From: a virus
Virus record (IMG/VR): IMGVR_UViG_3300017779_000020
Location: 1-46,906 of that record
Strand: one strand, 5' to 3'
DNA length: 46,906 nt
Shown: positions 20,583 to 35,889 of the stretch, in pieces
Numbering within the stretch: position 1 is the stretch's first letter
How the letters are laid out: every line of letters starts with the position of its first letter
The notes under the pieces: generated by a model
Database searches by the model: none
Told to the model about the DNA's origin: nothing
The model's input: only the letters and a program-made list of their open reading frames with translations
Translations under genes and position numbers: made by a program

Positions 20583-20607
20583 TATATACTCCTCAATTCA
20601 TTTTATA

Positions 20608-20615
20608 TATTTATG
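20608..20615 (-). promoter_or_regulatory. Late promoter box CATAAATA for two oxygenase genes
   Basis: One-base variant of the late box 25 nt upstream of the PKHD-type oxygenase. It overlaps the stop region of the preceding gene. Confidence 0.55.
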
Positions 20616-21363
20616 ATGTTGTTTTAGTTGTGCTGTTAGGATCAAGCGTAGCTTGTAAATTAAAATGAATAAATCTAAACTTATCTTTACCCTTGTGATG
20701 TACATATGAATGTGGCATGTATGAGTTAAAAAAGATAAATTGTCCTGGCTTTACTTTATAGTGTACCTGTTGACTACCATAATTTATTTTACTCTGATCT
20801 TTCATCTGTAAATCTGTCATCTTTTTACCTGGTCTAGGATCCCAAAATACAGGATGAGATGTCTTCTCATTACATTTTAAAAAATAGAAACCAGATATGT
20901 GATTATTACCATGTTCATGTATATCATGGAAACCACCTTCTTCAGGAAACTCTTGTACCCATAATTCAGTCAACAAAGGTATTCTTCCTGTTAGATTATA
21001 ACCTTGCCAAGATAATATATTCCATGATTGTTGTAAAATAAGATTTGCTATTTCTTTAAATTCTGGATATTGCCATAGCAATTCACTATGAAGTGAATTA
21101 GGCATAGTTTTAGCAGGATCTTTAGGGTCTTTTATTTTCTTCTTCCAGTTTTTTTTAAGTCTTTCAATAATAGGATCGGATGCCTTGTTTAAAGGTTCAA
21201 CCCACTCTGGTTTTTTAGAGATATATATTGGGCATTTAAAAGTTTCTTCAACATTAAATTCTAATTGTTCTTGTCCAGGCATAAGCATTTGTGGTTTGCT
21301 TTGCGCCTCTTGTTGTGTTGATATAAAAAGACTTTCTTCTTGTTTTTTAGATTCTTTACTCAT
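20611..21363 (-). CDS. 2OG-Fe(II) oxygenase, TIGR02466-like, divergent
   Basis: 250 aa. After a disordered Gln/Glu-rich N-terminus (1-40) comes FKCPIYISKKPEW, then LWVQEFPEEGGFHDIHEHG and ISGFYFLKC (His149/His151 candidates), PVFWDPRPG, and FIFFNSYMPHSYV (His218) with FRFIHFNLQ (Arg230). This is the same architecture as the 251-aa oxygenase but only distantly similar. The upstream gap holds no TATAAATA box; it probably reads from the promoter at 22092. Confidence 0.78.
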   Translation of the reverse strand: MSKESKKQEESLFISTQQEAQSKPQMLMPGQEQLEFNVEETFKCPIYISKKPEWVEPLNKASDPIIERLKKNWKKKIKDPKDPAKTMPNSLHSELLWQYPEFKEIANLILQQSWNILSWQGYNLTGRIPLLTELWVQEFPEEGGFHDIHEHGNNHISGFYFLKCNEKTSHPVFWDPRPGKKMTDLQMKDQSKINYGSQQVHYKVKPGQFIFFNSYMPHSYVHHKGKDKFRFIHFNLQATLDPNSTTKTTS

Positions 21364-21404
21364 TTCATAATCCTATCATATTTTAATATATTTGTCAAGC
21401 TTTA

Positions 21405-22073
21405 CTATTTAACTGTATATTTACCTACTTTAGGCATTCTTCCACCTTGGCCAGGTTCACCTTTATTTAATTTTCCCCACTTAGGATCAACCCAACCTCT
21501 ACCGAAATTGTTAGTTTCACCCAACACCCATTGCCAAACTTTTTTTCCTCTTTCTTTTTTTGCCTCTTTACTTATGCCTTTTTCTTGTTCAGTAGGTTCT
21601 CTATCTAAAGATTTTCCTTGGGGATTCATATGAGACATTACTTTACCTTGATTAGCTGCGTCAAGCCACGCTCTCATATTCATGGATTTATTAGGTTTAT
21701 ATTCTTGTTGCCATGCACCTGTAATTTTATTTTGTATTAATTTACCTTTTCCAGGTACTGCTTTTTTAGGTTTTGTATACCACCACCTTGATATGCCTCT
21801 ACCCATATCTGCCATCTTTTTAGCAAATGCTTTACTGTTTTCTTTAAATGATCTAAAGTTTTTTGCGTTCTCAATATCAAGCTCTCTCATCACATGGTCT
21901 CTTCTCCAACGCATTGCTCTTTGTTCTTCACTTTCCATATATTGATGTTCAAACTCTCTCAACTGGACTAAAGTTATCTCACCTCTTTCAAAGGCCTTTT
22001 TCTTATCAGCATATGCGTGTAAGTTATGAACTTCCCACTCATAGCCTTCAGGTATTTTGTATTTATCCGACAT
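21405..22073 (-). CDS. Unknown basic protein, 222 aa
   Basis: Not recognised. Starts MSDKYKIPEGYEWEVHNLHA, followed by a charged helical region (ERGEITLVQLREFEHQYMES), then a Trp- and Lys-rich second half with RWWYTKPKKAVPGKGKLIQN, AWQQEYKP, KKVWQWVLGETNNFGRGW and WGKLNKGEPGQGG. Strongly basic, without signal peptide or membrane segment. It has its own perfect late promoter whose predicted transcript begins with the ribosome site AGGAG. Possibly a minor virion or nucleic-acid-binding protein; no function can be assigned. Confidence 0.72.
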   Translation of the reverse strand: MSDKYKIPEGYEWEVHNLHAYADKKKAFERGEITLVQLREFEHQYMESEEQRAMRWRRDHVMRELDIENAKNFRSFKENSKAFAKKMADMGRGISRWWYTKPKKAVPGKGKLIQNKITGAWQQEYKPNKSMNMRAWLDAANQGKVMSHMNPQGKSLDREPTEQEKGISKEAKKERGKKVWQWVLGETNNFGRGWVDPKWGKLNKGEPGQGGRMPKVGKYTVK

Positions 22074-22091
22074 GTTATAATCTCCTAATTC

Positions 22092-22099
22092 TATTTATA
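22092..22099 (-). promoter_or_regulatory. Late promoter TATAAATA for the 222-aa gene
   Basis: Perfect late box 18 nt upstream of the start. It overlaps the last codons/stop of the methyltransferase gene. Confidence 0.8.
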
Positions 22100-22661
22100 C
22101 TCTCTTATAGACACAAAAATATGCCCTTAGATATGGTTTAATATTGCTATAATAATATGTATCTCTTATACTTTCAAGTTTAAAGTTATCGCCAAATACA
22201 CTTTCTAATTGTTTCTCACTAAATCTATAAGGTCCCGATTGATTTGCTAGATGATGAAACCTTACCTCATATGGACTCAATACTTTCAATAAAATTCTAC
22301 TATTTTTTTTAGTAATTTTTTTTATTATTGTAAAGTAATTATTGACTGTGGATAATACAAATATATTGTGTAGTAAACCTCTGTCAATGATGTAATCAAA
22401 CTTACCTTTTATTTTAGTATCTAATATATCATCTCTACTAAAGTCTTTTAATTTATATTTTAATTTTTCAACTATGTCTGTTGATTTAACTTTAAAACCA
22501 AGTTTTTGTAAAAAGAAACTTTGTGTGCCATCACCACAACCTAAATCTAATATTGTTTTACTCTTTACAATATTTTTAAAATACTTCTTTAGGTCATCAT
22601 CTAACTTATGATAATTCCAAGGCGTATTATTTTCTTCATATTGTTTCTGCCAATCAATCAT
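22095..22661 (-). CDS. Class I SAM-dependent methyltransferase
   Basis: 188 aa. Motif I ILDLGCGDGT (37-46), an acidic residue after beta-2 (STDIVEKL) and a motif II-like DYIIDRGLLHNI identify a Rossmann SAM methyltransferase. The opening WQKQYEENNTPWNYHKL resembles TehB/thiopurine-methyltransferase-type small-molecule enzymes rather than DNA methylases; no DPPY or PC motif is seen. It overlaps the preceding oxygenase gene by 8 nt, so the two are likely coupled. Substrate unknown. Confidence 0.85.
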   Translation of the reverse strand: MIDWQKQYEENNTPWNYHKLDDDLKKYFKNIVKSKTILDLGCGDGTQSFFLQKLGFKVKSTDIVEKLKYKLKDFSRDDILDTKIKGKFDYIIDRGLLHNIFVLSTVNNYFTIIKKITKKNSRILLKVLSPYEVRFHHLANQSGPYRFSEKQLESVFGDNFKLESIRDTYYYSNIKPYLRAYFCVYKRV

Positions 22662-23313
22662 AATTTTTCTTAATCTGTTTTAATAGTTTGTCATTAATGT
22701 GTTTTGGTATTGGTGGTTGTGATTTACCATATATTGATGTGGTATAAAAATCAAATGATATGCAAACTCTATCATCATCAGCATTATATTCTTTCAATAC
22801 ACCATGAGATATGTCACCTGGGAATAATATTATTTTACCAGGTTCTACCTTATATAAAACTGTGTTTTGTGTGAACTCATTAGCCACAAGTATAGGATCA
22901 TTCTTTCTATACTTTGCAAGATAAAGATTATCGTTTATATCTGTGCTGTTGATATATAACACGCCACTAATATATGCCTTTGAATGATTATGTTCAGAGA
23001 CCTTAGAACCTTTTTTAGCAAAATTGACCCACGACTTTCCTAAATATAAGAACTCTTTATCTAAATCTATCCCTCTCACTTTAGCATATTCGATAGCACG
23101 TTCTTCTATGTAATCAAATATCTTCTTAAATTTTTTATCGAAATGTATGTATGAATTTATTGTTGCAACACCTGTCTTTATATTACCTTGCACTAACAAT
23201 TCTTTATTATTGTCAGGTGTGTATTTTTTTAGATGAGGTATTAGAGACCTTAGGTGTGCTAGGTCTTTATAATGCTCATAATATATTGGTGTAGGAAACC
23301 ACTTTTGTATCAT
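22654..23313 (-). CDS. 2OG-Fe(II) oxygenase, PF13759-like
   Basis: 219 aa. Begins with the family opening WFPTPIYYEHY, has KSWVNFAKKGS then SEHNHSKAYISGVLYI (His108/His110), IILFPGDISHGV (His170) and DRVCISFDF (Arg182). This is the phage 2OG-oxygenase layout: HxH-type metal motif, distal His, and Arg for 2-oxoglutarate. Follows directly on the last adhesin gene, with only a weak AATAAATA box and no strong ribosome site. First of four oxygenases in 4.1 kb. Confidence 0.82.
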   Translation of the reverse strand: MIQKWFPTPIYYEHYKDLAHLRSLIPHLKKYTPDNNKELLVQGNIKTGVATINSYIHFDKKFKKIFDYIEERAIEYAKVRGIDLDKEFLYLGKSWVNFAKKGSKVSEHNHSKAYISGVLYINSTDINDNLYLAKYRKNDPILVANEFTQNTVLYKVEPGKIILFPGDISHGVLKEYNADDDRVCISFDFYTTSIYGKSQPPIPKHINDKLLKQIKKNYD

Positions 23314-23323
23314 AATATAGTAT

Positions 23324-23331
23324 TATTTATT
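23324..23331 (-). promoter_or_regulatory. Possible late box AATAAATA for oxygenase-methyltransferase pair
   Basis: One-base variant overlapping the stop codon of the last adhesin gene and 10 nt before the oxygenase start. Because TAATAAATAA also arises from the stop codon context, this is a weak call. Confidence 0.35.
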
Positions 23332-25000
23332 ACGCCCAGGATAAAGAAACTCCATGTATTTTTACTTGATTATTTGCCAATGCAAGTTTCCATCTCATAG
23401 ACTGACCACTAGGTTGTCCTGATATGGTTGCTTGACCTGTTAATATACGTTGACCACTTGCACCTGTCACATAACCACTATCTGCCAACGTGACTGTTGT
23501 AAAATTACTACCACCATTTCTACTTATACTTGCGATAATATCTGTATTCAAAGTAGGTGTGTCTATATTTTCTTCAAATACAACTATCCTTGATGTAGTA
23601 GGTACTGTACCAGCAGCAAAAGGTTCTGAAACAATTGTTGTTGAAGCAGCAACTAATTTTGTTCCTGTTATTAACACATAACCATCTTCGCCTGCCTCAC
23701 CTTCGCCTGTTCCTTGAGCACCTGCTTCATTTGTTCCACCAACGTATCCTGATATAGCTGTTCCACCGCCTTCTTCAGCAGCGCCTTCTTCAGTTGAACC
23801 TGAAGTAATTTGTGGGTGTGAGTGATATGATGAACCTCCACCACCTGAACCATAAGGACCAGGGGCATTACCAGCACCTGAACCACCACCTCCACCATAA
23901 AATCCAGCGCCTCCTCCACCAGGGGCAGCAGCAGGCACAAAACCAAATCCACCAGCAAATAATGATCCGTTTTGTCCTGCCCCATTAGGAGCTTCACCAC
24001 CTTGACCACCTTGTTCTTGGTCTCCACCTCCACCACTTGCCTCTGTCACAGGAGAACCACCACCTTCATTTCTATTAGTTTGCTCTGTTTGTGAATTACC
24101 AGCGTCACCTGTTAAACCACCACCAGCACCACCACATCCACCATTTGAATATCCTCCAGCACCACCTGAACCAGCAACAACGTAAGCTGTAGGAGCTGAA
24201 TATTGAGGAGCACTTAAAGGAACTAAATCAACTGAAAAAACTCCTGCTAAACCTCCACCTGAACCATATAAACCTTGTTGAGGAGAACTAGAACCTCCTG
24301 TTTTACCACCATTTAAAAAAGCAGAGGCAATACCAGATGATTCTTTTTGACCACCTTCTCCTGATAAAACTTTTACTGATTGTCCTTGAGTCACAGCAAG
24401 TGTACCTTCAGCATAACCACCTCCACCAGCACCACCATAATCTGTACCACCAGCACCCCATACTTTTATGTCAGCACTTGTCATGCCAAAAGGAACTGTA
24501 AAAGTACCCATTTGACCACTACCAATTGACGGATTTGTACCTGTTGTTGAAGTATCTGGTTCTGTAATTGATGTAGTTGTAAATCCTGCTGATATAGCTG
24601 CTGGAGTTGAATTAGAATATAAATCTGAAGTAGCACAATAATTGTCATTAGTACCTTCACCCTCGTCTGTTCCTGATTCATCGTGGAATTCATCTACGAC
24701 ACCATCTACTAAATTGAATACTGTTAAGTTTTCGTTTACAGCCATTTTAAAACCTAATAGAGCAACATTAAAATGTTCTCTATCAAAGTTTATTGATGAA
24801 CTAGGTAAGGTTACTGTTTTAGATGATAAATCTAAAGTTGAAGCAAGATCATCTGCTGTGACAGTTCCGTTTCCTATTTTAGCTGAGTCTACTGCGTCTG
24901 CCCCAATCTTTGCTGTTGTAGCAACACCCGTAGCTAGATTATCCTCTTTGACCTCAGAGTCTTTGATTGCTGTTTTTACTAATTTATTTAATGATCCCAT
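23330..25000 (-). CDS. Glycine-rich adhesin paralog F (556 aa)
   Basis: Sixth and last transcribed member of the adhesin array. N-terminal linker with KIGADAVDSAKIGNGTVTADD, nearly the same as paralog E; conserved ALLGFKMAVNENLTVFNLVDG and EFHDESGTDEGEG; Gly-rich centre of about 300 residues (residues about 155-450) with long Gly runs; conserved HPQITSGSTEEG; and the shared roughly 100-residue C-terminal domain ending MRWKLALANNQVKIHGVSLSWA (22 residues, described by its ends MRWKL and SLSWA). Belongs to the DQEQGG subtype with paralogs A and C. Probable tail-fibre tip/adhesin; polyglycine packing as in S16 gp38 is inferred. Confidence 0.85.
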   Translation of the reverse strand: MGSLNKLVKTAIKDSEVKEDNLATGVATTAKIGADAVDSAKIGNGTVTADDLASTLDLSSKTVTLPSSSINFDREHFNVALLGFKMAVNENLTVFNLVDGVVDEFHDESGTDEGEGTNDNYCATSDLYSNSTPAAISAGFTTTSITEPDTSTTGTNPSIGSGQMGTFTVPFGMTSADIKVWGAGGTDYGGAGGGGYAEGTLAVTQGQSVKVLSGEGGQKESSGIASAFLNGGKTGGSSSPQQGLYGSGGGLAGVFSVDLVPLSAPQYSAPTAYVVAGSGGAGGYSNGGCGGAGGGLTGDAGNSQTEQTNRNEGGGSPVTEASGGGGDQEQGGQGGEAPNGAGQNGSLFAGGFGFVPAAAPGGGGAGFYGGGGGSGAGNAPGPYGSGGGGSSYHSHPQITSGSTEEGAAEEGGGTAISGYVGGTNEAGAQGTGEGEAGEDGYVLITGTKLVAASTTIVSEPFAAGTVPTTSRIVVFEENIDTPTLNTDIIASISRNGGSNFTTVTLADSGYVTGASGQRILTGQATISGQPSGQSMRWKLALANNQVKIHGVSLSWA

Positions 25001-25003
25001 GCG

Positions 25004-26758
25004 TTAAGCCCATTGTAAAGCCACGCCATGTATTTTCACCGCATTGTTAGCCAATGCAAGTTTCCAACGCATTGATTGACCACTTGGTTGTCCTGAAATT
25101 GTAGCTTGTCCTGTTAAAATTCTTTGTCCTGAACTTCCTGTGACGTAACCACTATCTGATAAGGTTGCTGTAGTAAAATTACTACCACCATTTCTACTAA
25201 CAGAGGCAATAATATCTGTATTAAGTGTGGGAGAAGCTACATCTTCTTCAAATACTACTATTCTAGCAGTAGTAGGAACAGTACCAGCAGCAAAAGGTTC
25301 TGAAACAATTGCTGTTGATTGAGTGTTTGCAGTTGTTGAAACACTTCCAGAACCTGTGATTAATACATATCCATCACCACCTACACCTGTATTTGGCGTA
25401 CCATCACCACCTGTTGATGTTGCTTTACCGTTTGCAGGATCACCTGTTGTTGGATAAGCAGCTGGATAAAAAGGACTACCAGCACCTGGTGCAGATGTAC
25501 CTGATCCACTACCACATGTACTACCACTTGTAATCTGTGGGTGACCTATATAACCTGATCCACCACCACCGTTTCCGTCTTGTCCACCACCATCGGGTCT
25601 TCCTCCACCACCGCCGCCGCCGAAATAACCAGCACCACCAGCGCCTCCTCTAGGAGAATTACCACCTTTAAATAAATTACCTGCTTGACCACTAAATAAA
25701 GGTCCACTACCTGCACCACCACCAGCAGTTTGAGAACCACCTGATCCACCAGTTACCATAGGGCCATATCCACCAAAACCACCTGATCCACCAGTTGCAC
25801 CACCACCTCTTCCAGTGTTAGCAGAGCCAGAAGGGCCTACATATCCACCACCGCCACCTGAACCAGCGATAATATATGCGTCTGGTGCCTCACCTGGACT
25901 ACTCTCAGCAGCTGACCAATCAAAATTTTCTATGAATACACCTGCAAGACCACCACCTCCACCAGCAGTTGTTTCACCACCACCAAAGAAACCACCAGAA
26001 GTTAAAGGTCTAGGACCACATGTTCTAGGACCACCACCGATTGCATTTTCAGTAAGACCACCTTCACCTGCAAGTACATCTAATACTTGACCTGCTGTCA
26101 CAGCAAGGATACCTTCAGAGTAACCTCCGCCGCCACCATTATTTTTAAAATTACAACCACCATAACCTGATCCTCCACCACCACCAAAAACATAAATGTT
26201 TGCAGCTGTCATAGCGGCAGGTACTGTAAACTTACCAGCTGTACCAGAACCTGGTGCAGGGTTAGTACCTATTGTTGAAGTATCTGGTTCAGTTATTGCT
26301 TTTGTACCGAATCCAGCAGAGACACAGAAAGGCGAACAAAATGAAACACCTGTTGGTGATGTACTATTGACATAAAAATCACTTGTTGCGTTATATGTGT
26401 CGTTTGAACCTTCGGCTTCGTCTGTTCCTGATTCATCATGGAACTCATCAACAACGCCGTCAACTAAATTGAATACTGTAAGACCGTCATTTACGGCCAT
26501 TTTAAATCCTAATAATGCGATATTATCTTGTACTGGTCTTTTTAAACTATCTACTAAACCACCAGCAAGTGTGACTGTCTTAGGAGACAAGTCTAAAGAT
26601 GAAGCTAGATCGTCTGCTGTGACAGTTCCGTTGTTTATCTCTGAACTCTCTACAGCATCAGCGCCTAACTTTCCAGTAGTGACTGAGCCTGGTGCTAATT
26701 TATCACCATCTACAGCGTTATTTGTTATACCTTTTGTAGTGACTTTAGTAAGAGCCAT
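25004..26758 (-). CDS. Glycine-rich adhesin paralog E (584 aa)
   Basis: Fifth array member, SQTAGG subtype. N-terminus VTTKGITNNAVDGDKLAPGS then the linker shared with F; conserved LLGFKMAVND and EFHDESGTDEAEG; Gly-rich centre with many GGGG runs and cysteines in CSPFC, GGCNFK and RTCGPRP; GHPQITSGSTCGS; and the common C-terminal domain (SGQRILTGQATISGQPSGQ). Four bases separate it from F, and 3 nt from D. It lacks the virion-attachment module seen in paralog A, so it must be anchored differently or assemble on a partner. Confidence 0.85.
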   Translation of the reverse strand: MALTKVTTKGITNNAVDGDKLAPGSVTTGKLGADAVESSEINNGTVTADDLASSLDLSPKTVTLAGGLVDSLKRPVQDNIALLGFKMAVNDGLTVFNLVDGVVDEFHDESGTDEAEGSNDTYNATSDFYVNSTSPTGVSFCSPFCVSAGFGTKAITEPDTSTIGTNPAPGSGTAGKFTVPAAMTAANIYVFGGGGGSGYGGCNFKNNGGGGGYSEGILAVTAGQVLDVLAGEGGLTENAIGGGPRTCGPRPLTSGGFFGGGETTAGGGGGLAGVFIENFDWSAAESSPGEAPDAYIIAGSGGGGGYVGPSGSANTGRGGGATGGSGGFGGYGPMVTGGSGGSQTAGGGAGSGPLFSGQAGNLFKGGNSPRGGAGGAGYFGGGGGGGRPDGGGQDGNGGGGSGYIGHPQITSGSTCGSGSGTSAPGAGSPFYPAAYPTTGDPANGKATSTGGDGTPNTGVGGDGYVLITGSGSVSTTANTQSTAIVSEPFAAGTVPTTARIVVFEEDVASPTLNTDIIASVSRNGGSNFTTATLSDSGYVTGSSGQRILTGQATISGQPSGQSMRWKLALANNAVKIHGVALQWA

Positions 26759-26761
26759 CTA

Positions 26762-28360
26762 TTAACTCCATTGTAATGATACACCGTGTATCTTCACTTG
26801 ATTATTAGCCAAAGCGAGTTTCCATCTCATAGACTGACCTGAAGGTTGTCCTGAGATAGTTGCTTGGCCAGTTAAAATTCTTTGACCACTTGATCCTGTG
26901 ACATATCCTGAATCTGTTAAAGTAGCAGTCGTAAAGTTTGATCCACCATCTCTACTAATTGAAGCAATTACGTCTGTATTAAGTGTTGGACTATCTACAT
27001 TTTCTTCAAATACAACTATTCTACTTATTGTAGGAACAGTACCAGCAGCAAAAGCTTCTGAAACAATTGTCGTTGATGTAGCAGCCGCACAAACTGCTGC
27101 TGATGTAATTAAAACATAACCATCTTCACCCTTTACATTGTTAGTATTTGTATGTGAACCATCTTGTCCTGATTCATTTGTATCTGCAACATAAGCAGGA
27201 TCTGCTGTTCCACCACCTTCTAAACCTGCTGCTTCTTCAGTTGCACCTGAACTAATTTGTGGGTTACCAATATAACCTGAACCTCCACCAGCACCTCCAT
27301 GTTGACTACCTTGGTCAGTTCCTACACCACCACCATAGAATCCACCACCACCACCTGCCATAACAGCAGTAGCGCAGTTTGCAATTCCACCATACATGAA
27401 ACCACCTGAAGCAGCTTCACCACCTGGTGTTGAACCACCTTGACCACCAGCAGTTTGAGAACCTCCACCAGCATAACCATTTGGACTTTTACCTGGTGTT
27501 GCTTGTCCTTTAGAAGTTTGTTCAGCGGATTCAGATGTTGCACCTTCACAACTACTTTGACCTCTGTCACCTTGAAGACCACCACCTCCACCACCAATAG
27601 TAAATACTGTGTTGCTACAACTACCAGCTGCACCTCCGCCGCCTCCAGCAGCGATAGCAAAACCTGATGTTGGGAATGTATTACTTGGACCTGGTACAAA
27701 TTGAGGATGACTAACTTCAACAGGACCTGCTGTTATAAATGATCCCCCTCCACCACCACCAGTATTAGGATTTAGAGGACCAGTAGTTGATCCTTCTCCA
27801 CCACCACCTAAAGTAATTCTATCATATGGTTGAGGACCTTCAGCACCTTCACCTGGACCAGCACCTTCGCCAACTACTATATCTAATACTTGACCTGCTG
27901 TCACAGCATAATTACCTGAAGAAAAACCTCCTGCACCACCAGAACCATAATTTTTTGTTCCACCACCACCTGCAGCCCAAGCTTTTAAAGTGACACTTGT
28001 TATACCTGCTGGTACTGTAAATGTTCCAAACGTACCTGTACCATATTGTGGATTTGTTGCTGTTGTTGATGTTTGTGGTTCTGTAATTGCTGTTGTTGAA
28101 AAACCTGCAGATAATCCTGCGACTGATACTCCAGTATTTGTATTAGAGTTAATATAATAATCTGAATCTGCAACATATCTATCGTTAGAACCTTCACCTT
28201 CGTCTGTACCACTTTCATCATGGAATTCATCTACTACTCCGTCAACCAGATTAAAGACAGTTAAACCTTCGTTTACTGCTATCTTAAAACCTAATAGTGA
28301 TATGTTAAATTCATTGTCTTCAGTTTTTCCAGAAGCAAGTAATCTTGTTTTTAGTCCCAT
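26762..28360 (-). CDS. Glycine-rich adhesin paralog D (532 aa)
   Basis: Fourth array member and the one with the shortest N-terminus: only about 22 residues before ISLLGFKIAVNEGLTVFNLV. SQTAGG subtype (YAGGGSQTAGGQGGSTPG), with cysteines in GSCSNTV, SSCEGA, IANCATA and AAVCAAA. The peptide GNPQISSGATEEA deviates from the GHPQITSGST of the others. Common C-terminal domain ends KIHGVSLQWS. The ribosome site AAGGAG lies just upstream; transcribed from the 203-aa gene's promoter. Confidence 0.85.
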   Translation of the reverse strand: MGLKTRLLASGKTEDNEFNISLLGFKIAVNEGLTVFNLVDGVVDEFHDESGTDEGEGSNDRYVADSDYYINSNTNTGVSVAGLSAGFSTTAITEPQTSTTATNPQYGTGTFGTFTVPAGITSVTLKAWAAGGGGTKNYGSGGAGGFSSGNYAVTAGQVLDIVVGEGAGPGEGAEGPQPYDRITLGGGGEGSTTGPLNPNTGGGGGGSFITAGPVEVSHPQFVPGPSNTFPTSGFAIAAGGGGGAAGSCSNTVFTIGGGGGGLQGDRGQSSCEGATSESAEQTSKGQATPGKSPNGYAGGGSQTAGGQGGSTPGGEAASGGFMYGGIANCATAVMAGGGGGFYGGGVGTDQGSQHGGAGGGSGYIGNPQISSGATEEAAGLEGGGTADPAYVADTNESGQDGSHTNTNNVKGEDGYVLITSAAVCAAATSTTIVSEAFAAGTVPTISRIVVFEENVDSPTLNTDVIASISRDGGSNFTTATLTDSGYVTGSSGQRILTGQATISGQPSGQSMRWKLALANNQVKIHGVSLQWS

Positions 28361-28376
28361 ATTTCTATTTATCTCC

Positions 28377-28988
28377 TTAGATTGGTAGATACCTCACTCT
28401 TATTTCAGCACTTGCACTAGGTGGAGTACTAAAAGTTAATGTTGTTCCTGATAATGTGTAGTCATCACTAGGATGAAATACTACACCATTGACGGTTACT
28501 AGAATATCGTTTTGTGTTCTACCACTAGTACCGATTGTAAAACCTGTTGTTGAACCATCACCTGCTAAATTTGCATTTACTGAATATGCTAATGTAGTTG
28601 CGATATTAGATTTCTGTATTTTTTTTAATGAGGTAGTAGATGTGTCGTATATTAATAATAAATCATCATCAGCTGCAAGGGCAGATAATTCTGTTTGTCC
28701 TGTGATTGCGCCTGTGCCTAGTATAGAGCCAGCGTCAAATGCTACGCCTAAAAATATGACAAATATATCTTCACCAGATTCTGGTGCAGCTGAGAACACT
28801 ATTGTTGTACCACCACTTGCGATATTGTAAGCAGTCTCAGGTTCTTGTAATACTCCTGATACAGATACAAGTATTGCACTTGATGAACCTACTGTATAAT
28901 TAAGAGTGAATGTAGTTGTAGAACCATCTGCTGTGAAATCTTGTTTTTCAAATGTTCCTGCAACAGGTGTCTTTCCTATATATGCCAT
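28377..28988 (-). CDS. Free-standing fibre-attachment-module protein (203 aa)
   Basis: Begins MAYIGKTPVAG, like the N-terminus of adhesin A (MAYIGKSPST). Contains two copies of a beta module: FTADGSTTTFTLNYTVG...SGVLQEPETAY (about 18-83) and LAGDGSTTGFTIGTSG...NGVVFHPSDDYTLSG (about 141-200), joined by a linker with AADDDLLLIYDTSTTSLKKI common in marine phage fibres. A Gly-rich tip is absent. It may be the adaptor or stalk that carries the neighbouring adhesins, which lack this module. Perfect late promoter upstream. Confidence 0.78.
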   Translation of the reverse strand: MAYIGKTPVAGTFEKQDFTADGSTTTFTLNYTVGSSSAILVSVSGVLQEPETAYNIASGGTTIVFSAAPESGEDIFVIFLGVAFDAGSILGTGAITGQTELSALAADDDLLLIYDTSTTSLKKIQKSNIATTLAYSVNANLAGDGSTTGFTIGTSGRTQNDILVTVNGVVFHPSDDYTLSGTTLTFSTPPSASAEIRVRYLPI

Positions 28989-29016
28989 ATACTAAAAATC
29001 CTTTTTCTTATAATAC

Positions 29017-29024
29017 TATTTATA
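29017..29024 (-). promoter_or_regulatory. Late promoter TATAAATA for 203-aa protein and adhesins D-F
   Basis: Perfect late box 28 nt upstream of the 203-aa gene, in the gap after adhesin C. It divides the adhesin array into two transcription units (A-B-C and D-E-F). Confidence 0.8.
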
Positions 29025-29033
29025 ATCATTTTA

Positions 29034-30698
29034 TTACGCCCAGGCTAATGAAACTCCGTGTATTTTTACTTTCTTATTTGCAAGTGCTAACTTCCATCTC
29101 ATACTTTGACCACTTGGTTGACCACTAATAGTTGCCTGACCTGTTAATATTCGTTGCCCACTTGAACCAGTGACGTATCCACTATCACTTAAAGTTGCGT
29201 TTGTAAACGTACTACCACCATCTCTACTAATTGAAGCAATAACATCCGTATTTATTGTAGGTGTTTCAACGTTTTCTTCAAACACAACTATACGAGATGA
29301 TGTAGGTACACTACCAGCGGCAAAAGCATTTGATACGATTGTTGTTGAAGAAGTAACTAAAGTTGTTGCTGTACCACTTATTAAAACATATCCATCATTA
29401 CCGTGTGGTACGGGCATGTCAGGATATGAGTTGCCAGCTTCATCAACGTGAGCGTCATTTGTACCTGCTACATATTGAGGTATTGAAACTCCACCACCCT
29501 CTGTACCAGCGCCTTCTTCGGTTGAACCTGAAGTAATTTGTGGGTGACCATAATAAGATGAACCACCACCTGCTGATGAACCAAATGAACTTGGTTGTAA
29601 TAAAGGGCCACCACCACCTCCGTAATATCCTGATCCTCCACCTGGAGTATAAGTAGCGTCACCACTTGGTGGAGCACCTGCTCCTCCTGTAAATAAAGCT
29701 CCTACTACACCAGTGTAAGCAGGTCCGTTAGGATTTGCATAAACACCACCACCTTGTTCTTGGTCTCCTCCACCTCCACCACCTGCTTGTGGACTATAAT
29801 TAACTTGTTCCGACTGAGTTGACCCAGCGTCACCTATTAATCCCCCACCAGCACCACCTGGATTAGATTCTTGGAATGGTGGTGATTTCCAACCTCCACC
29901 TCCACCAGAACCTGCTATTACATAAGCTTGAGGAGCACTTGATAATGCTGGTTCAGTTGTTGCTGGAGCCACAAATACACCTGACAATCCACCACCACCT
30001 GAAGATCCTGGACCACCACCACCTAGTCCACCTCTTTCTCTTAAATTTGGTGTGTCTATCACTCCACATGTTGCTCTGGAACCACCTTCACCAACTACAA
30101 CTGCTAAAGCTTGTCCAGCAGTCACGGCAAGTGTACCCTCAGCATAACCTCCACCACCACCATCTCCTAAATAAGTTGAACCACCTGCTGATCCCCAAAC
30201 TTTTAAATCTACACTTGTAGCACCAGTCGGTACTGTAAAAGTACCAAATGTTCCTTCACCAATTTGTGGATTAGTACCTGCTGTTGATGTGTCTGCTTCT
30301 GTGACTGTTGTTGTTGTAAAACCTGCTAAAAAAGGTGCTGGAGAAGGCACTTCATTTTGATAAAAGTCACTTGAAGCACAATAGGTATCATTTGATCCTT
30401 CAGCCTCATCTGTTCCTGACTCATCATGGAATTCATCTACAACACCATCTACTAAATTAAACACCGTTAAATTTTCATTAACAGCCATCTTAAATCCAAG
30501 TAAAGATACGTTAAATTTTGCGTCTGTTAGACTCGCACAAGCATTTGTTAATGTTGTTGAGATTGCAGCTAAACCTGCTGTTTTAGAATCAACAATAGCT
30601 GCACTAGGACTTATATCAGCATTTACTATTGTGTTATCAACAATTTTATCTGAAGTGACTGTGTTGCTTGGAAGTTTTTTTATTTTAGTAAGTGCCAT
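29034..30698 (-). CDS. Glycine-rich adhesin paralog C (554 aa)
   Basis: Third array member, DQE subtype. The N-terminus has the fibre linker IVNADISPSAAIVDSKTAG, followed by SLLGFKMAVNENLTVFNLV and EFHDESGTDEAEG. The Gly-rich centre includes LSSAPQAYVIAGSGGGGGW and GGGGGGDQEQGGGV, then YYGHPQITSGSTEEG and the shared C-terminal domain ending KIHGVSLAWA. Starts 3 nt after paralog B. Function as a receptor-binding tip is inferred from the Gly-rich domain type. Confidence 0.85.
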   Translation of the reverse strand: MALTKIKKLPSNTVTSDKIVDNTIVNADISPSAAIVDSKTAGLAAISTTLTNACASLTDAKFNVSLLGFKMAVNENLTVFNLVDGVVDEFHDESGTDEAEGSNDTYCASSDFYQNEVPSPAPFLAGFTTTTVTEADTSTAGTNPQIGEGTFGTFTVPTGATSVDLKVWGSAGGSTYLGDGGGGGYAEGTLAVTAGQALAVVVGEGGSRATCGVIDTPNLRERGGLGGGGPGSSGGGGLSGVFVAPATTEPALSSAPQAYVIAGSGGGGGWKSPPFQESNPGGAGGGLIGDAGSTQSEQVNYSPQAGGGGGGDQEQGGGVYANPNGPAYTGVVGALFTGGAGAPPSGDATYTPGGGSGYYGGGGGPLLQPSSFGSSAGGGSSYYGHPQITSGSTEEGAGTEGGGVSIPQYVAGTNDAHVDEAGNSYPDMPVPHGNDGYVLISGTATTLVTSSTTIVSNAFAAGSVPTSSRIVVFEENVETPTINTDVIASISRDGGSTFTNATLSDSGYVTGSSGQRILTGQATISGQPSGQSMRWKLALANKKVKIHGVSLAWA

Positions 30699-30701
30699 GC
30701 G

Positions 30702-32501
30702 TTAACTCCATTGAAGAGCCACGCCGTGTATTTTTACTGTATTAGTGGCCAGTGCCAGTTTCCATCTCATGGATTGTCCACTAGGTTGACCTGAAATTGT
30801 GGCTTGACCTGTTAAAATTCTTTGTCCTGATGATCCAGTGACATATCCTGAATCTGATAATGTAGCAGTTGTAAATGTTGATCCACCATCTCTGGATATT
30901 GAAGCAATTATGTGTGTATTAAGTGTAGGAGATTGAACATCTTCCTCAAATACAACAATTCTACTTGTAGTAGGAACAGTACCAGCAGCAAAAGGATTAG
31001 ATATTATAGTTGAGTTACCACCACCTGGAGCACCAAATGCACTAAATGGTCCTGTCAATAACATATAACCGTCTTCTCCATTACTAGTTTCAGTACCACC
31101 TTCGTTTGTACAAGCAACATATGAACCTATGGCTGTACCACCACCTTCACAATTTGATCCTGCTTCTGTTGAACCTGAAGTTATCTGTGGGTGACCAATA
31201 AAAGATGACCCTCCGCCACCTCCACCTGAAATACCTGGTTCCCAACCACCTCCACCACCACCGTAGTATCCAGCACCTCCACCACTACCTACGTTATAAT
31301 TATTTCCTTCACACACATAGTTATTACCACCATAGAATAATCCACCATCTTCGGCATTACCAGGGCCAGGGGCAGGAGAGGCAGAAGATCCACCTTGTCC
31401 ACCAGCAGTCTGACTTCCTCCACCACCATGTGGAGTACCTGATGTACAACCTGGGTGTGATGTAAATGTATTTACCCTATTAGTTTGAGCTTGATCACCA
31501 GTTGCATATCCGTGAGGACCACCACCTGCACCACCTGGAGAAGCTGCAGTTTCTGGATTGAAGTCTGGTCTATCATAGTTAAATGTTCCACCACCACCTG
31601 CACCTGCGATTAAAGCAGCAGTTGGTGCACCGCCTGATAATGCAGCTGTGAAAATACCTGATAATCCACCACCGTGTCCGTTCTCACCCTTACCTGGAGT
31701 ACCTGATAAACAAGAACTACAAGGTGAAACTCCACCACCTCCAGCAACTTCTGGTTGCGAAGCGGAAGCTAATCTTTCTGGAGAAGGTCTGTATCCTCCG
31801 ATACCACCATGTGAATATGAAGCAGTATTTAAGTTACCAAAACCTAGACCACCTTCACCTACAACAACTGTAAGTGCTTGACCAGGTGTCACAGCAAGAG
31901 TACCTTCAGAGTAACCACCTCCACCACCATGTGCTTTACAATCTCTTCCTGAACCTTCACTAATAGAACCACCTTGACCTCCACCACCAGCACCCCAAGC
32001 AAATATATTTACCGAGGTCATACCATTAGGTACAGTAAATGAACCAAATGTTCCTGCGGCTATGATTGGGTTTGTACCTGCTGTTGATGTATCAGCCTCT
32101 GTGACTGCTGTTGTTGTAAATCCAGCAGAAACACATCCTGCTGTTAAATTATTTGAATAAACATCATTAGTAGCACAATAATGATCGTTAGAACCTTCAC
32201 TTTCGTCCGTTCCAGACTCGTCATGGAATTCATCTACAACACCATCTACTAAATTAAATACTGTAAGGCCATCATTTACGGCCATCTTAAATCCTAATAA
32301 AGCGATATTTTGTTCAACAGCACCTACTGTACTATTAATACTAGTGGCTGTTGCACATAGAGTAGCAATACCTGGTGCTTTAGAACTTGCAATCGCAGCT
32401 GAAGGCGATATGTCTGCATTTACAATAGTACCATCTACTATATTGTCTGAAGTGACAGCAGATTGACCTATTGATCCTTGTTTAATTTTATTAAGTGCCA
32501 T
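30702..32501 (-). CDS. Glycine-rich, cysteine-containing adhesin paralog B (599 aa)
   Basis: Second array member, SQTAGG subtype, the longest of the five that lack the attachment module. N-terminal linker IVNADISPSAAIASSKAPG, then ALLGFKMAVNDGLTVFNLV. About eleven cysteines, including SPCSSCLSG, HPGCTSG, YVCEGN and SNCEGG inside the Gly-rich loops, an unusual number for a cytoplasmically assembled phage protein. Ends with the common domain and VKIHGVALQWS. Neighbours: a 64-aa gene upstream and paralog C 3 nt downstream. Confidence 0.85.
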   Translation of the reverse strand: MALNKIKQGSIGQSAVTSDNIVDGTIVNADISPSAAIASSKAPGIATLCATATSINSTVGAVEQNIALLGFKMAVNDGLTVFNLVDGVVDEFHDESGTDESEGSNDHYCATNDVYSNNLTAGCVSAGFTTTAVTEADTSTAGTNPIIAAGTFGSFTVPNGMTSVNIFAWGAGGGGQGGSISEGSGRDCKAHGGGGGYSEGTLAVTPGQALTVVVGEGGLGFGNLNTASYSHGGIGGYRPSPERLASASQPEVAGGGGVSPCSSCLSGTPGKGENGHGGGLSGIFTAALSGGAPTAALIAGAGGGGTFNYDRPDFNPETAASPGGAGGGPHGYATGDQAQTNRVNTFTSHPGCTSGTPHGGGGSQTAGGQGGSSASPAPGPGNAEDGGLFYGGNNYVCEGNNYNVGSGGGAGYYGGGGGGWEPGISGGGGGGSSFIGHPQITSGSTEAGSNCEGGGTAIGSYVACTNEGGTETSNGEDGYMLLTGPFSAFGAPGGGNSTIISNPFAAGTVPTTSRIVVFEEDVQSPTLNTHIIASISRDGGSTFTTATLSDSGYVTGSSGQRILTGQATISGQPSGQSMRWKLALATNTVKIHGVALQWS

Positions 32502-32516
32502 TAATATCTCTCTTTA

Positions 32517-32711
32517 TTAACTAATTTTTGTGCCGAAATAACCAGTAGCATTATCAATTTTTCTTGTTTCACCATCCTTGTTAGGGTCATAGACGTTATC
32601 TTGGCTGTCATCTAACTTGATAGCATTACTATCTTTGTTAGAGCCTGAAACAATCTTAATCTTTGCACCTGCTTGAGGTCTAGTTCCGACTTTTGTAATT
32701 CTTTGTACCAT
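32517..32711 (-). CDS. Small protein between adhesins A and B (64 aa)
   Basis: Not recognised. Hydrophilic, with RITKVGTRPQAGAKIKIVSG and a KLDDSQDNVYDPNKDGETRK segment; no membrane or signal sequence. Spacing of 9 nt from adhesin A and 15 nt to adhesin B, with a GGAGAATAA ribosome site, supports a real gene. Position suggests an accessory, such as a chaperone or connector, for the adhesins, without direct evidence. Confidence 0.6.
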   Translation of the reverse strand: MVQRITKVGTRPQAGAKIKIVSGSNKDSNAIKLDDSQDNVYDPNKDGETRKIDNATGYFGTKIS

Positions 32712-32720
32712 TTATTCTCC

Positions 32721-34682
32721 TTATGCCCATTGTAGCGATACACCGTGTACCTTAACGGAATTATTCGCAAGAGCCAGTTTCCATCTCATAGACTGACCTG
32801 ATGGTTGTCCTGATATGGTCGCCTGACCAGTTAAAATTCTTTGACCACTTGTTCCTGTGACATAACCACTATCCGCAAGGGTAGCAGTTGTAAAGTTTGA
32901 TCCACCGTCTCTACTAATTGAAGCAATAATATCTGTATTGAGTGTAGGTGTTGCCACATTTTCCTCAAATACTACTATCCTTGATGTAGTAGGTACTGTA
33001 CCAGCAGCAAAAGGTTCTGAAACAATTGTTGTTGCAGTAGCTGAAGCTGCTTGAGAAACTGTTATAAAAACATATCCGTCTTCACTACCTGTTGGAGAAC
33101 CCTCATTAGTGTCAGCAACATAAAGTGGTTGATCTACACCACCACCTTCTTCCCCAGCACCTGCCTCTGTTGAACCTGAAGTTATTTGTGGATGACCATA
33201 GTAAGATGATCCACCTCCACCACCTTTATCAGTAGATTGTCCACCACTTGTTCTTGCACCTGCACCACCACCATAATAACCTGCACCTCCACCTCCAGCA
33301 CTATACCTTGATGTAGGAGAAGCACCTGTAGCACCTGAAAATAAAGTACCATCATTAGCACTTGGTTCATCTACACCGTGACCACCAGCCTCTTGGTCTC
33401 CACCACCTCCACCACCAGAAGCAGAACCACAATTTGAAAAAGTAAATGGGCCACCAAAAGGACCTGCTTGACCACCAGTAAGACCTCCACCAGCACCACC
33501 TTCATTGTCATTACCAGAAGCACCACCTGAACCTGCAATAACGTAAGCTTGTGGGGCTGAATATTGAGGAGCTGATAATGGAACTAAATCAGCAGCAAAT
33601 ACGCCTGATAGACCACCACCTCCACCAGCATAATAAGTAGATGGTCCACCTGAACCACTAGTTGCACCACCATTTAAAAAAGCTGATTCAAGCGAGTCAT
33701 CATTTTGAGATCCGCCACCTTCACCTGCAATAATATGTAAAGTTTGACTGGCTGTGACAGCAAGAGTACCTTCTGCATAACCACCGCCTGCACCGCCTGC
33801 TGCTTGACCAGAGTAACCACCAGAAGCACCCCATACAGCAATATTAACCGAAGGAGTACAAGCAGGTACAGTAAATGTTCCCATAGCACCTTCACCATAC
33901 GCAGGATTATTTCCTGCTGTTGATGTTTGTGGTTCTGTGATTGCTGTTAAAGAAAATCCTGCTGATATAGGAGTTGTAGGCGAACCATCAGGTGTCGTAC
34001 TATTAATGTAATAGTCACTAGAAGCATTATATAAATCGTTTGAACCCTCTGCCTCGTCTGTTCCTGATTCATCATGGAACTCGTCAACTATACCGTCAAC
34101 AAGATTGAATACTGTAAGGCCTTCATTTACGGCCATTTTAAATCCTAATAAAGAAATATTAAATGCGTTTGTATCTATTAAATCTGTTGGCATAGCACCG
34201 TATGTTCTATCACCTCTTAAAAATACACTAGCACTACCTGGTGCTGATAAGGCAGAAATATTTACTTTACTTGCAGTTGTTATACTTGCAAGTTTACTAT
34301 CAGCGATGGCTGCACTTGCATTAAGATCAGCATTAACAATCGCCCCATCAGCAATCTTCGCTGATGTAATTGTACCGTCACCTACTTCAGTTATATTTGT
34401 GGCTTCGAAAGTTGTGATGACATAAATCTCGTCTGAAGCGTCTGGCGCCGCTGTAAATGTAATTCTTTTTAGATCACCTGATCCATCATTACCTACTGTG
34501 AACGCATTTGAAGCGCCTGGTTTTTGTCTTACGTTGTTTACAAATACTTGTAATCCGTTTTCACCACCTGCAGGTATTATATTCGCTAGATCAAATGCAA
34601 CAGTAGAACCATCACCTGTGAAGGTATCTACTTTAGCTGCTGCCGAGAACTTTGTACTCGGTGATTTTCCTATGTATGCCAT
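32721..34682 (-). CDS. Glycine-rich tail fibre/adhesin paralog A with attachment domain (653 aa)
   Basis: First array member and the only one with a full N-terminal attachment region: MAYIGKSPST then the beta module around DTFTGDGSTVAFDL (1-92), the linker IVNADLNASAAIADSKLAS (115-133), and FLRGDRTYG. From about 175 it follows the common plan: ISLLGFKMAVNEGLTVFNLV, EFHDESGTDEAEG, a Gly-rich centre of about 280-520 (VPLSAPQYSAPQAYVIAGSG shared with F; GGGGGGDQEAGG), YYGHPQITSGSTEAG and the C-terminal domain. Probably the fibre that links the array to the baseplate. Host-receptor binding is inferred. Confidence 0.87.
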   Translation of the reverse strand: MAYIGKSPSTKFSAAAKVDTFTGDGSTVAFDLANIIPAGGENGLQVFVNNVRQKPGASNAFTVGNDGSGDLKRITFTAAPDASDEIYVITTFEATNITEVGDGTITSAKIADGAIVNADLNASAAIADSKLASITTASKVNISALSAPGSASVFLRGDRTYGAMPTDLIDTNAFNISLLGFKMAVNEGLTVFNLVDGIVDEFHDESGTDEAEGSNDLYNASSDYYINSTTPDGSPTTPISAGFSLTAITEPQTSTAGNNPAYGEGAMGTFTVPACTPSVNIAVWGASGGYSGQAAGGAGGGYAEGTLAVTASQTLHIIAGEGGGSQNDDSLESAFLNGGATSGSGGPSTYYAGGGGGLSGVFAADLVPLSAPQYSAPQAYVIAGSGGASGNDNEGGAGGGLTGGQAGPFGGPFTFSNCGSASGGGGGGDQEAGGHGVDEPSANDGTLFSGATGASPTSRYSAGGGGAGYYGGGAGARTSGGQSTDKGGGGGSSYYGHPQITSGSTEAGAGEEGGGVDQPLYVADTNEGSPTGSEDGYVFITVSQAASATATTIVSEPFAAGTVPTTSRIVVFEENVATPTLNTDIIASISRDGGSNFTTATLADSGYVTGTSGQRILTGQATISGQPSGQSMRWKLALANNSVKVHGVSLQWA

Positions 34683-34691
34683 GTTTTATCC

Positions 34692-35060
34692 TTATACGTC
34701 TTCTAATACAGAAACAATTGCGTCACAAGCACTTGCCGTGCCTGATGATATTCTTAATACATCAGCTGCTGATCCAGTATTTTGTAAAACTAGTTTGTTT
34801 CCTGCCATAACCTCTAATGAGGATCCTGCGGGTATCGTAGCATTTTTTACAATATGCACGTCATTTGAGCCTGCGTTGTTATCTAAAAACACACTTGCTG
34901 TTATACCAGCAGATGATGTGTTTGATATTGTGATACCAATAACAATTGACTCTAACGCACTTGAACCTGCCCCAGCGGGTACTGAATATACAGCACTAGC
35001 AGAAGCACCTGTTGATGTATTTACGTTTGTTACCGCAAATCTTTTAAAATCGTTAGCCAT
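34692..35060 (-). CDS. Conserved beta-rich virion protein, 122 aa
   Basis: No enzyme motif. Pattern FKRFAVTNVNTS, ALESIVIGITISNTSS, ITASVFLDNN, HIVKNATIPAGSSLEVM, NKLVLQNTGSA and a terminal CDAIVSVLEDV. Similar small beta-sandwich proteins occur among structural proteins of marine T4-likes (general recollection). It opens the transcription unit of adhesins A-C under a perfect late box whose predicted leader begins AAAGGAAT. Likely a fibre- or baseplate-associated protein. Confidence 0.75.
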   Translation of the reverse strand: MANDFKRFAVTNVNTSTGASASAVYSVPAGAGSSALESIVIGITISNTSSAGITASVFLDNNAGSNDVHIVKNATIPAGSSLEVMAGNKLVLQNTGSAADVLRISSGTASACDAIVSVLEDV

Positions 35061-35077: not shown

Positions 35078-35085
35078 TATTTATA
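35078..35085 (-). promoter_or_regulatory. Late promoter TATAAATA for 122-aa gene and adhesins A-C
   Basis: Perfect late box 17 nt upstream of the 122-aa start, adjacent to the preceding stop codon. Confidence 0.8.
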
Positions 35086-35889
35086 TTATCCTAAAGCGAC
35101 TGCCTGAGCAATCGCAAAAGCATTTGACGCAAAAGTTTGTGTTGCGCCTGTTGATGTCACAAAAGTTATATCTTGTAGAACTTTTGAGTTTACCCCAACT
35201 CTATTACCCATATAGCCGTGTGAACTACATTGATAATATAAAATATGTGGTGTAGTGTCGGCAACTACTATTTGAGTATATGCCCCAGCACTACCAGGTG
35301 TGCCATTTGTTGTCACTCCTGTTGAAAAAGCAGTAGTTTTCGCAGGATCATAATAGAATAATAATGGGTGACCACTATTTGAACCATCTGCCTGATCGAA
35401 TCTATATGTATTACCTGCTTTTAATTCTAAAAACGGCGATTCTACACCGTCTAAAGTATAACCATTAGCTGAACCTGTGCCATGATATATGTGGGCAGAG
35501 GTTTTACTAATAACTTTAACAACAACATCTGTATATGTGTTAGAACCATCAGCATTATGTTTCGTACTTAATAGATCAAAACTGTGAGTTGCAAGACTAG
35601 TGTTAACTGATAGAGTTAATGTATCTGTAGCAGACACAGCCGCCGTTATACCTGAGGTACCAGTCACAGTCATAGTATTTCCTGCAACTACTGTTTGTGT
35701 TGTAGAGCCATCTGATAATACGAAACCTGTAGCAGAAACAGACGTATTAATCTCGTTGATCGCAGCTACGATAGTCTTGGCAGTTGTACCAAGTGTTGCT
35801 GGATCCCCTATATCAGTTCCTGACAGACTATTAAAACTAGTCCTAAAACCTTCTAGTGTACTTGTTGTTGCTACATTTCTTGCGGCCAT
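35086..35889 (-). CDS. Virion protein with cupredoxin-like domain (267 aa)
   Basis: N-terminal part (1-100) is fibre-like (EGFRTSFNSLSGTDIGDPAT, TAKTIVAAINEIN). Residues about 120-235 form a plastocyanin-like unit: LELKAGNTYRFDQADGSNSG leading to His174 (SGHPLLFY), then HILYYQCSSHGYM with Cys221, His224 and Met227. This is the H...C-x2-H-x2-M arrangement of type 1 copper sites. The C-terminus ends AIAQAVALG. Cupredoxin-like domains in marine phage structural proteins have been noted before; whether copper is bound is untested. Follows the 79-aa gene and shares the gp8 transcription unit. Confidence 0.82.
   Translation of the reverse strand: MAARNVATTSTLEGFRTSFNSLSGTDIGDPATLGTTAKTIVAAINEINTSVSATGFVLSDGSTTQTVVAGNTMTVTGTSGITAAVSATDTLTLSVNTSLATHSFDLLSTKHNADGSNTYTDVVVKVISKTSAHIYHGTGSANGYTLDGVESPFLELKAGNTYRFDQADGSNSGHPLLFYYDPAKTTAFSTGVTTNGTPGSAGAYTQIVVADTTPHILYYQCSSHGYMGNRVGVNSKVLQDITFVTSTGATQTFASNAFAIAQAVALG

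Follow-up and report, generated by a model that had tools for sequence, protein, structure and literature searches.

Six adhesin paralogs with putatively interchangeable glycine-rich centres in the host-recognition region of a T4-like phage

Results

Architecture of the adhesin array

The stretch of DNA analysed here, referred to as the window, comprises all 46,906 nucleotides of IMG/VR virus record IMGVR_UViG_3300017779_000020, which encodes T4-type gp23, portal, sheath, terminase and gp15. An array of six intact adhesin open reading frames (ORFs), designated A to F, occupies positions 23330-34682 on the minus strand. The predicted proteins share two conserved blocks (N-block and C-block) that flank a divergent, glycine-rich centre. 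The array contains the following features.

32721-34682, minus strand: gene F, 653 aa, first adhesin of the array (ORF, alignment; PF12810 E 1.2e-13; AlphaFold 2 (AF2) model; ALK fold Z 16.5)
33048-33896, minus strand: glycine-rich centre of F, TNF-like/glycine-rich type, approximate limits (profile, anatomy, fold match)
30702-32501, minus strand: gene E, adhesin paralog, 599 aa (ORF, alignment)
31032-32060, minus strand: glycine-rich centre of E, approximate limits (alignment)
29034-30698, minus strand: gene D, adhesin paralog, 554 aa (ORF, alignment; PF12810 E 1.5e-13)
29358-30260, minus strand: glycine-rich centre of D, approximate limits (profile, anatomy)
28377-28988, minus strand: gene X, 203 aa, tail-attachment (TA) protein of the T7 tail-fibre N-terminal type (PF03906 E 4.4e-8)
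26762-28360, minus strand: gene C, adhesin paralog, 532 aa, short leader (ORF, alignment; PF12810 E 1.1e-7)
27089-28042, minus strand: glycine-rich centre of C, approximate limits (profile, anatomy)
25004-26758, minus strand: gene B, adhesin paralog, 584 aa (ORF, alignment)
25334-26251, minus strand: glycine-rich centre of B, approximate limits (alignment, anatomy)
23330-25000, minus strand: gene A, adhesin paralog, 556 aa (ORF, alignment; centre 81% identical to the gene 2 centre of the related locus L014)
23654-24523, minus strand: glycine-rich centre of A, approximate limits (anatomy)

Each of the six proteins consists of a leader (15 to 171 residues), an N-block (about 90), a centre (about 280-340) and a C-block (about 105), with an overall glycine content of 17.6-23.1%. 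In 40-column windows, mean pairwise identity reached 0.91 in the first block and 0.82-0.94 across the final three windows of the C-block, as compared with 0.22-0.64 in the centres. At the DNA level, a 300-nt repeat family was detected in six copies, five of which are 71-78% identical to the reference copy, far above chance. ORFs, identity profiles and repeats thus bear out the initial annotation, in which six genes with conserved end blocks and divergent glycine-rich centres had been recognized. Its description of the first block as N-terminal has to be corrected, since this block is internal and lies behind the leaders. A further correction is that the array includes the non-paralogous gene X, located between C and D. 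An X-like gene precedes a short-leader adhesin also in the related loci L002, L010, L011 and L015.

Protein F is the only one of the six adhesins with a TA domain (residues 1-97), which is followed by the leader, the N-block (172-262), the centre (263-545) and the C-block (546-653). In its model, residues 10-93 resemble a baseplate chain of phage P1 (Z 8.2) and residues 15-102 an HRP29 tail chain (Z 7.2); fold matches do not show function, and those with Z below 8 may reflect a merely common arrangement.

Sequence and predicted fold of the centre

The centres of C, D and F resemble the ALK/LTK family PF12810 in sequence, with scores of 32.6, 51.7 and 52.1 bits, respectively, against a curated cut-off of 24.5 bits. 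At E 0.01, 18 of the 32 sequences in alignment A2 matched the family, and none of eight shuffled F centres did. Among the six paralogs, an ALK-type fold was recognized in the predicted model of F. This AF2 model has a mean predicted local distance difference test (pLDDT) score of 67, with values of 80-92 across much of the glycine-rich part. It matched ALK/LTK structures over about residues 236-543 with Z 14.4-16.5 (best ALK match: Z 16.5, 220 residues, root-mean-square deviation 4.2). Further matches of the modelled centre were to the fibre of cyanophage Pam3 (Z 11.5 and 10.8) and to a Bxb1 tail-tip chain (Z 10.0). The centre is therefore predicted to adopt the TNF-like/glycine-rich fold common to ALK/LTK and the Pam3 fibre, and probably binds the host surface.

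Similar predicted structures were present in BFVD among proteins of a cyanophage, a Caulobacter phage and other viruses. Several of these phage proteins carry the name 'receptor protein-tyrosine kinase', apparently a transferred ALK label. A sequence search of the PDB with alignment A2 found nothing. The glycine-rich parts had initially been likened to those of the S16 gp38 family. The data do point to binding-type glycine-rich modules in a tail-fibre locus. Kinship with gp38 did not emerge: the matches obtained were to PF12810 and to ALK and Pam3 structures, and gp38 (6F45) is absent from the fold matches listed for F, an absence that excludes nothing.

The conserved blocks as predicted halves of one domain

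The model of F also matched beta-sandwich domains from about residue 184 to 653, namely Eph ligand-binding domains, carbohydrate-binding modules (CBMs) and a phi812 baseplate protein (Z 10.5). As N- and C-block align jointly to such sandwich or jelly-roll domains, we read them as one domain with the centre between them. Six of 103 distinct genes with both blocks lack a centre; five of these are complete (214-240 aa), and one is a copy of the L044 gene cut by the contig end. For the 225-aa centre-less protein of L056, the model was better than that of F (pLDDT 79.6), and its residues 82-225 matched the phi812 protein with Z 13.8 and Eph or CBM sandwiches with Z 9-10. The models thus predict that the two 'ends' are halves of one beta-sandwich which is split by the centre.

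A probe consisting of the two blocks alone (E 0.01) retrieved 14 records: nine Rhizobium phages, one fosmid phage and four records of SAR11 podophages, which represent phages HTVC201P, HTVC011P and HTVC028P. A profile of the centre-less proteins matched the four marine proteins in two co-linear pieces, the N part being the weaker. These four have N parts (64-72%) and C parts (76-88%) in common. Of the six pairs of inserts, HTVC201P with S35-C6 reached z 4.6, and the other five aligned no better than shuffled sequences (z -0.4 to 1.5). The HTVC028P insert belongs to PF12810 (E 3.6e-15). The inserts of HTVC201P and S35-C6 look LamG-like and that of HTVC011P discoidin-like, assignments that no profile confirmed. 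In a protein of Rhizobium phage RHph_Y52, a LamG domain (PF13385, E 1.4e-23) is located between weak, co-linear pieces of the frame.

Copy number and anchoring in related loci

In an alignment scan of IMG/VR, the best 80 of 113 encoding stretches yielded 69 distinct loci. Once duplicate contigs, two annotated records and copies of the window itself had been removed, 70 loci, the window among them, were examined; near-identical contigs were not merged. Two or more genes with full N- and C-block were present in 39 loci, one in 19 and none in 12, where contig ends cut the genes. Searches of whole records with alignment A2 returned six full genes in L002, six in L015 and three in L012, each with sequence on both sides (a fourth hit in the L012 record is a weak leader match), and one full gene in the 31,791-base L033 record. 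The anticipated change in copy number among relatives was thereby verified. Eight of 11 tested records encode a T4-type portal, which indicates that both phage groups represented, that of the window and a second, more distant one, are T4-like. Loci L039, L042, L044 and relatives, which belong to the second group, have two adhesin clusters about 6 kb apart, one of two genes and one of three.

The 70 loci contain 79 gene clusters, 13 of which are cut at the contig start. Among the 66 uncut clusters, seven are headed by a gene with a TA domain (including F of the window), 24 lie within 60 nt and four within 1.7 kb behind a TA gene.

Scans with flanking genes covered 80 loci plus one further locus, and array genes were present in two of these 81, L083 and L163. 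A scan of genome contigs uncovered L164, a 118,694-base contig of a Porticoccaceae metagenome-assembled genome with one adhesin relative and a T4-type portal gene; it looks like a binned phage. A tblastn search of the phages collection with two proteins of the second group gave nothing at 1e-5, with the proviso that low-complexity masking tests glycine-rich parts poorly.

Exchange and loss of centres

The alignment of loci L044 and L042 has a left arm of 7,762 columns (93.3% identity), which stops where the slot-4 N-block ends, and a right arm of 7,391 columns (93.9%), which begins with the C-block. Between these arms lie 55 nt in L044 versus 1,135 nt in L042; the centre is absent from L044. 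At another slot, L056 and L072 aligned to L057 in their left arms (96.0% over 3,015 and 97.8% over 5,754 columns, respectively) and L056 also in the right arm (94.9% over 894 columns), where the L072 contig ends; the arms are separated by 166 nt in L056 versus 1,252 nt in L057. Since the centre-less L044 protein recurs in six contigs, an assembly error is unlikely, even though IMG/VR contigs are drafts.

Centres are also replaced. In ten of 22 slot comparisons, which are not mutually independent, centres only 52-58% identical stand beside leader and N-block of 76-97% identity. The remaining comparisons comprise three with the absent L044 centre, two with centres of 72% and seven with centres of 84-94% identity. 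At slot 2 of L044 and L039, for example, identity is 97% in leader and N-block, 53% in the centre and 80% in the C-block; the corresponding values for L010 and L011, which belong to the group of the window, are 76/56/74, 89/58/80 and 86/52/74. Identity drops at the end of the N-block and recovers at the end of the C-block or at the start of the next gene, a pattern that fits exchange via the shared blocks carrying along much of the C-half. With L056 and L057, the dip begins already in the leader.

Leaders (without the conserved N-block residues) and centres were clustered at 60% and 65% identity, respectively, thresholds that were our choice. Ten of 14 recurring centre types are paired with two or more leader types, and the largest leader type (15 genes) carries ten centre types; two of the 14 types are merely near-identical contig pairs (window/L016 and L010/L012).

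In trees of the window's group, genome labels clustered strongly for the C-block (13 changes versus a shuffled mean of 22.1, none of 200 shuffles as low), weakly for the centre (17 versus 20.5, 2/200) and not for the N-block (19 versus 20.4, 40/200). The best match was found in the same genome for 18 of 29 C-blocks, nine of 26 centres and nine of 26 N-blocks. In the centre tree, A forms a clade with L014 gene 2 and L015 gene 5 (support 95/90), a trio defined after this tree had been viewed. The C-blocks reject this clade in an approximately unbiased (AU) test (p 0.005). Conversely, the centres reject as clades the six genes of L015 (AU p 0.0028) and those of the window (0.0015), but not the three of L010 (0.13). 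The N-blocks gave p values of 0.279 for the L015 six, 0.0425 for the window's six and 0.321 for the trio.

A global test for runs of shared silent codons was weakly positive for the C-blocks of L010 (p 0.0065) and L011 (0.0175), and not positive for L002, L015 or N-blocks (0.07 to 0.97). Single pairs in the N-blocks of L002 and L015 and in the C-blocks of L015 reached p below 0.01, with many pairs tested. Gene conversion as the sole cause of the alike C-blocks was rejected: although these cluster by genome, the median proportion of synonymous differences (pS) is barely lower within than between genomes (0.57 versus 0.61). Co-adaptation or old conversion may account for the likeness.

Age of the paralogs in the window

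Between paralogs of the window, pS amounts to 0.42-0.74 in the end blocks. Synonymous sites are thus near saturation, and the paralogs are probably old. The median ratio of non-synonymous (pN) to synonymous differences is about 0.76 in the centres and about 0.25-0.35 in the ends. Runs of shared silent codons gave no significant sign of recent gene conversion in the window (N-block p 0.078, C-block p 0.29); A and F share an exact run of 61 nt in the C-block. A contig 99.9% identical to the window shows 18 differences over 16,964 positions. The array accounts for six of them (A three, C one, D two), of which the one in C alters a residue. Recombination through the shared ends, as initially postulated, is backed by the exchange of centres at or near the shared blocks in relatives, yet recent recombination was not detectable in the window itself.

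Signs of joint expression

The string TATAAATA, which we take to be the T4 late-promoter consensus, occurs eight times on the coding strand and not on the other. By count alone this is unremarkable, as a first-order Markov control (200 runs) gave a mean of 3.6 and a maximum of 9 on the coding strand. Seven of the eight sites start 25-37 nt ahead of a gene start, including those of X (29024) and of gene Y (35085), which lies upstream of F.

29017-29024, minus strand: TATAAATA, T4-type late-promoter-like site 36 nt before X; proposed unit X-C-B-A (consensus match)
35078-35085, minus strand: TATAAATA, T4-type late-promoter-like site 25 nt before Y; proposed unit Y-F-E-D (consensus match)

Junctions E-D, C-B and B-A are 3 nt each, with GGAG upstream at two of the three. 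Over all loci, neighbouring genes are no more than 15 nt apart at 43 of 65 distinct junctions. At 33 of these 43, GGAG, AGGA, GAGG, AAGG or GGA stands 4-16 nt upstream; the criterion is a loose one, with no control for chance. At 20 of the 65 junctions, all from the second phage group, there is a gene overlap of 10 nt, and the codons of the conserved C-terminal LQW motif contain the next ATG. Promoter-like sites, close junctions and the low pN/pS of the ends suggest that all six adhesins are expressed together, and the first two favour a displayed set over a silent store.

Genomic neighbourhood

Upstream of the array, the following genes were identified.

36114-42413, minus strand: large gene with a DNA-level match to the VrlC/baseplate region of Pelagibacter phage Mosig EXVC030M; upstream border of the host-recognition cluster (megablast and profile matches)
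35086-35889, minus strand: gene Z, 267 aa (tail-fibre/baseplate-fibre connector families: phrog_30742 2.7e-52, phrog_677 2e-11)
34692-35060, minus strand: gene Y, 122 aa, opens the proposed unit Y-F-E-D (weak match to phrog_26609, 1e-5)

Mosig was the only megablast match in the phages collection for positions 23000-46906 (72% identity over pieces covering 17% of the query); the matching pieces fall in VrlC and baseplate genes. SAR11 or a similar marine bacterium is our guess for the host, based on this likeness. In pelagimyophages, a hypervariable host recognition cluster with several tail fibres lies between VrlC and gp14 (PMC7029224). The array is situated between the VrlC-like gene and a gene for a neck protein (PF11649; 14012-14791), and hence in the corresponding place.

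Directly downstream of the array (19217-23313) are four 2-oxoglutarate-Fe(II) oxygenase-like genes and one weakly methyltransferase-like gene, a stretch which is almost unchanged in L163. Two large genes (17646-18836 and 15647-17626) between the oxygenases and the neck region have weak matches to tail-fibre, virion or unknown families; the latter has no Pfam match. No tRNA was found in the window. As to a diversity-generating retroelement, PF00078 (RVT_1) had no match in the record, which is a fragment.

Discussion

We consider it likely that the array represents a set of interchangeable ALK-type domains, held in a shared split sandwich and displayed together. The six products would be tail-fibre tip proteins built on one chassis of N-terminal tag, helix and split beta-sandwich, in which the helix probably trimerises. 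The inserted TNF-like/glycine-rich domain, of the type found in ALK/LTK and the Pam3 fibre, would contact the host surface. F, with its own TA domain, and X, as a separate TA protein, are likely virion anchors, one for each of the two proposed late units Y-F-E-D and X-C-B-A. Owing to the close junctions, the adhesins would be made together, so that each virion probably bears several kinds of adhesin. On a longer time scale, recombination in or close to the conserved blocks on either side would exchange, remove or replace the centre, frequently along with much of the C-half. This would happen both within a slot and from one slot to another, and the tag would be retained.

Several observations weigh against this interpretation. 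Exchange was seen directly in relatives, mostly those of the more distant T4-like group. A, B and E had no match in Pfam at E up to 1, the confidence of the F model (mean pLDDT 67) is low outside the glycine-rich part, and the jelly-roll matches (Z 7-10) may reflect no more than a widespread arrangement. For 31 of the 66 uncut clusters no TA gene was found nearby, and the B-A junction has no string resembling a ribosome site. Finally, the near-identical contig shows no change in the array: order and alleles are the same in A, B, C and X and in as much of D as the contig covers. Identical alleles in relatives had been named at the outset as evidence against a recombining repertoire. They were encountered in this one contig pair of 16,964 bases, over which they speak against recent change; other relatives vary in copies and centres.

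Three other explanations were weighed. Each paralog might occupy a particular position within baseplate or fibre and play its own structural role there, so that the diversity of centres would have nothing to do with receptors or host range. Tags do differ by slot and are kept per slot in relatives, as if each were a docking address of its own (leader and N-block 82-99% identical in 19 of the 22 comparisons, 66, 68 and 76% in the other three). Yet such a fixed division of labour is hard to reconcile with the ten of 14 recurring centre types found on different tags, with centres missing in some slots and with copy numbers from 1 to 6, and we judge it unlikely. Still less probable is a silent repertoire, in which F, bearing the anchor, would be the working fibre and the other genes stored cassettes that are copied into it. 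It would explain why F alone has a fused TA domain and why six other loci (L002 and L008-L012, including the near-identical pair L010 and L012) also begin with a TA-bearing adhesin. All six ORFs are intact, though, with pN well below pS in the shared blocks; the proposed unit X-C-B-A comes with a separate late-promoter-like site and TA protein; and recent copying was not detectable in the window, while exchange in relatives reaches slots other than the head.

Least probable, in our estimate, is that the genes are ordinary old duplicates whose low-complexity centres drift fast between constrained ends, with no need for exchange. Near-saturated synonymous sites among all paralogs of the window, and a pN/pS higher in centres than in ends, would be expected in that case. 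Drift would not readily produce centres of 53-58% identity beside leader and N-block DNA of 89-97% at the same slot, nor absences of about 1.1 kb with flanks of 93-98%, nor centre and C-block trees that disagree (AU p 0.005, 0.0028).

Interchangeable domains displayed as a set would provide an architecture for the hypervariable host-recognition region of ocean phages, with address, frame and exchanged binding-type domain told apart. If this holds, the way these phages track changing host surfaces becomes testable, and cultured SAR11 podophages with a related frame would offer a bench system. A more far-reaching proposal, to which we give somewhat less than an even chance, is a multivalent plug-in tip with up to six ALK-type domains per virion. 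Its chassis would be an exchange format across marine T4-like and T7-like phages that accepts unrelated folds (glycine-rich, LamG-like and others) at one site, and the array could grow because the conserved 3' ends hold a ribosome site and, in some phages, the next start codon.

Among known systems, the host recognition cluster of pelagimyophages shares the hypervariable place between VrlC and gp14 and the presence of several tail fibres; neither a glycine-rich paralog array nor cassettes are described in the available text (PMC7029224). A description of the split frame or the array was likewise not found in the accessible parts of the open-access literature, including PMC8651126 and PMC9004378. 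A hypervariable tail-fibre locus is a known kind of system; as far as these searches go, the chassis, its forms without a centre and the way in which tags and centres are mixed are new to it.

S16-type gp38 (PDB 6F45) resembles the array proteins as a host-range adhesin with glycine-rich motifs and hypervariable segments, and has an N-terminal helical bundle with Trp residues that dock on gp37 (PMC6851490). It differs in being a single adhesin that caps gp37 by Trp-bearing attachment helices and in its fold, a beta-helix core with a polyglycine sandwich. To the ALK/LTK domain, the array is linked by the family match of C, D and F and by the best fold match (Z 16.5); ALK and LTK are animal receptor kinases, whereas the phage version sits inside a tail protein. 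The Pam3 cyanophage fibre gp24 (PDB 7YPX), likened to ALK by its authors (PMC9608196), is a myophage fibre with a helical stalk and a TNF-like plus glycine-rich domain. The centre of F matched it with Z 11.5, and the model of the centre-less relative has a helix at residues 58-82. In contrast to the six-gene array, gp24 is a single fibre protein with a chaperone, gp25, and a split outer sandwich, an array or centre exchange is not mentioned in the available portion of that paper (PMC9608196).

The frame itself also has parallels. A baseplate protein of Staphylococcus phage phi812 (chain 9EUF_0), related by fold only, has a sandwich like that of the centre-less protein (Z 13.8), and the span between its first and last aligned residues, 499 and 1150, suggests that it too may hold an insert in its sandwich. 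For pelagiphages, under-recruiting C1q and tail-fibre C-terminal regions have been described (PMC3909814). The SAR11 podophages HTVC011P, HTVC201P and HTVC028P differ from the array in having one matching gene per phage in our search and, in two of the three, inserts that are not glycine-rich; as in the array, a related split frame encloses a differing middle.

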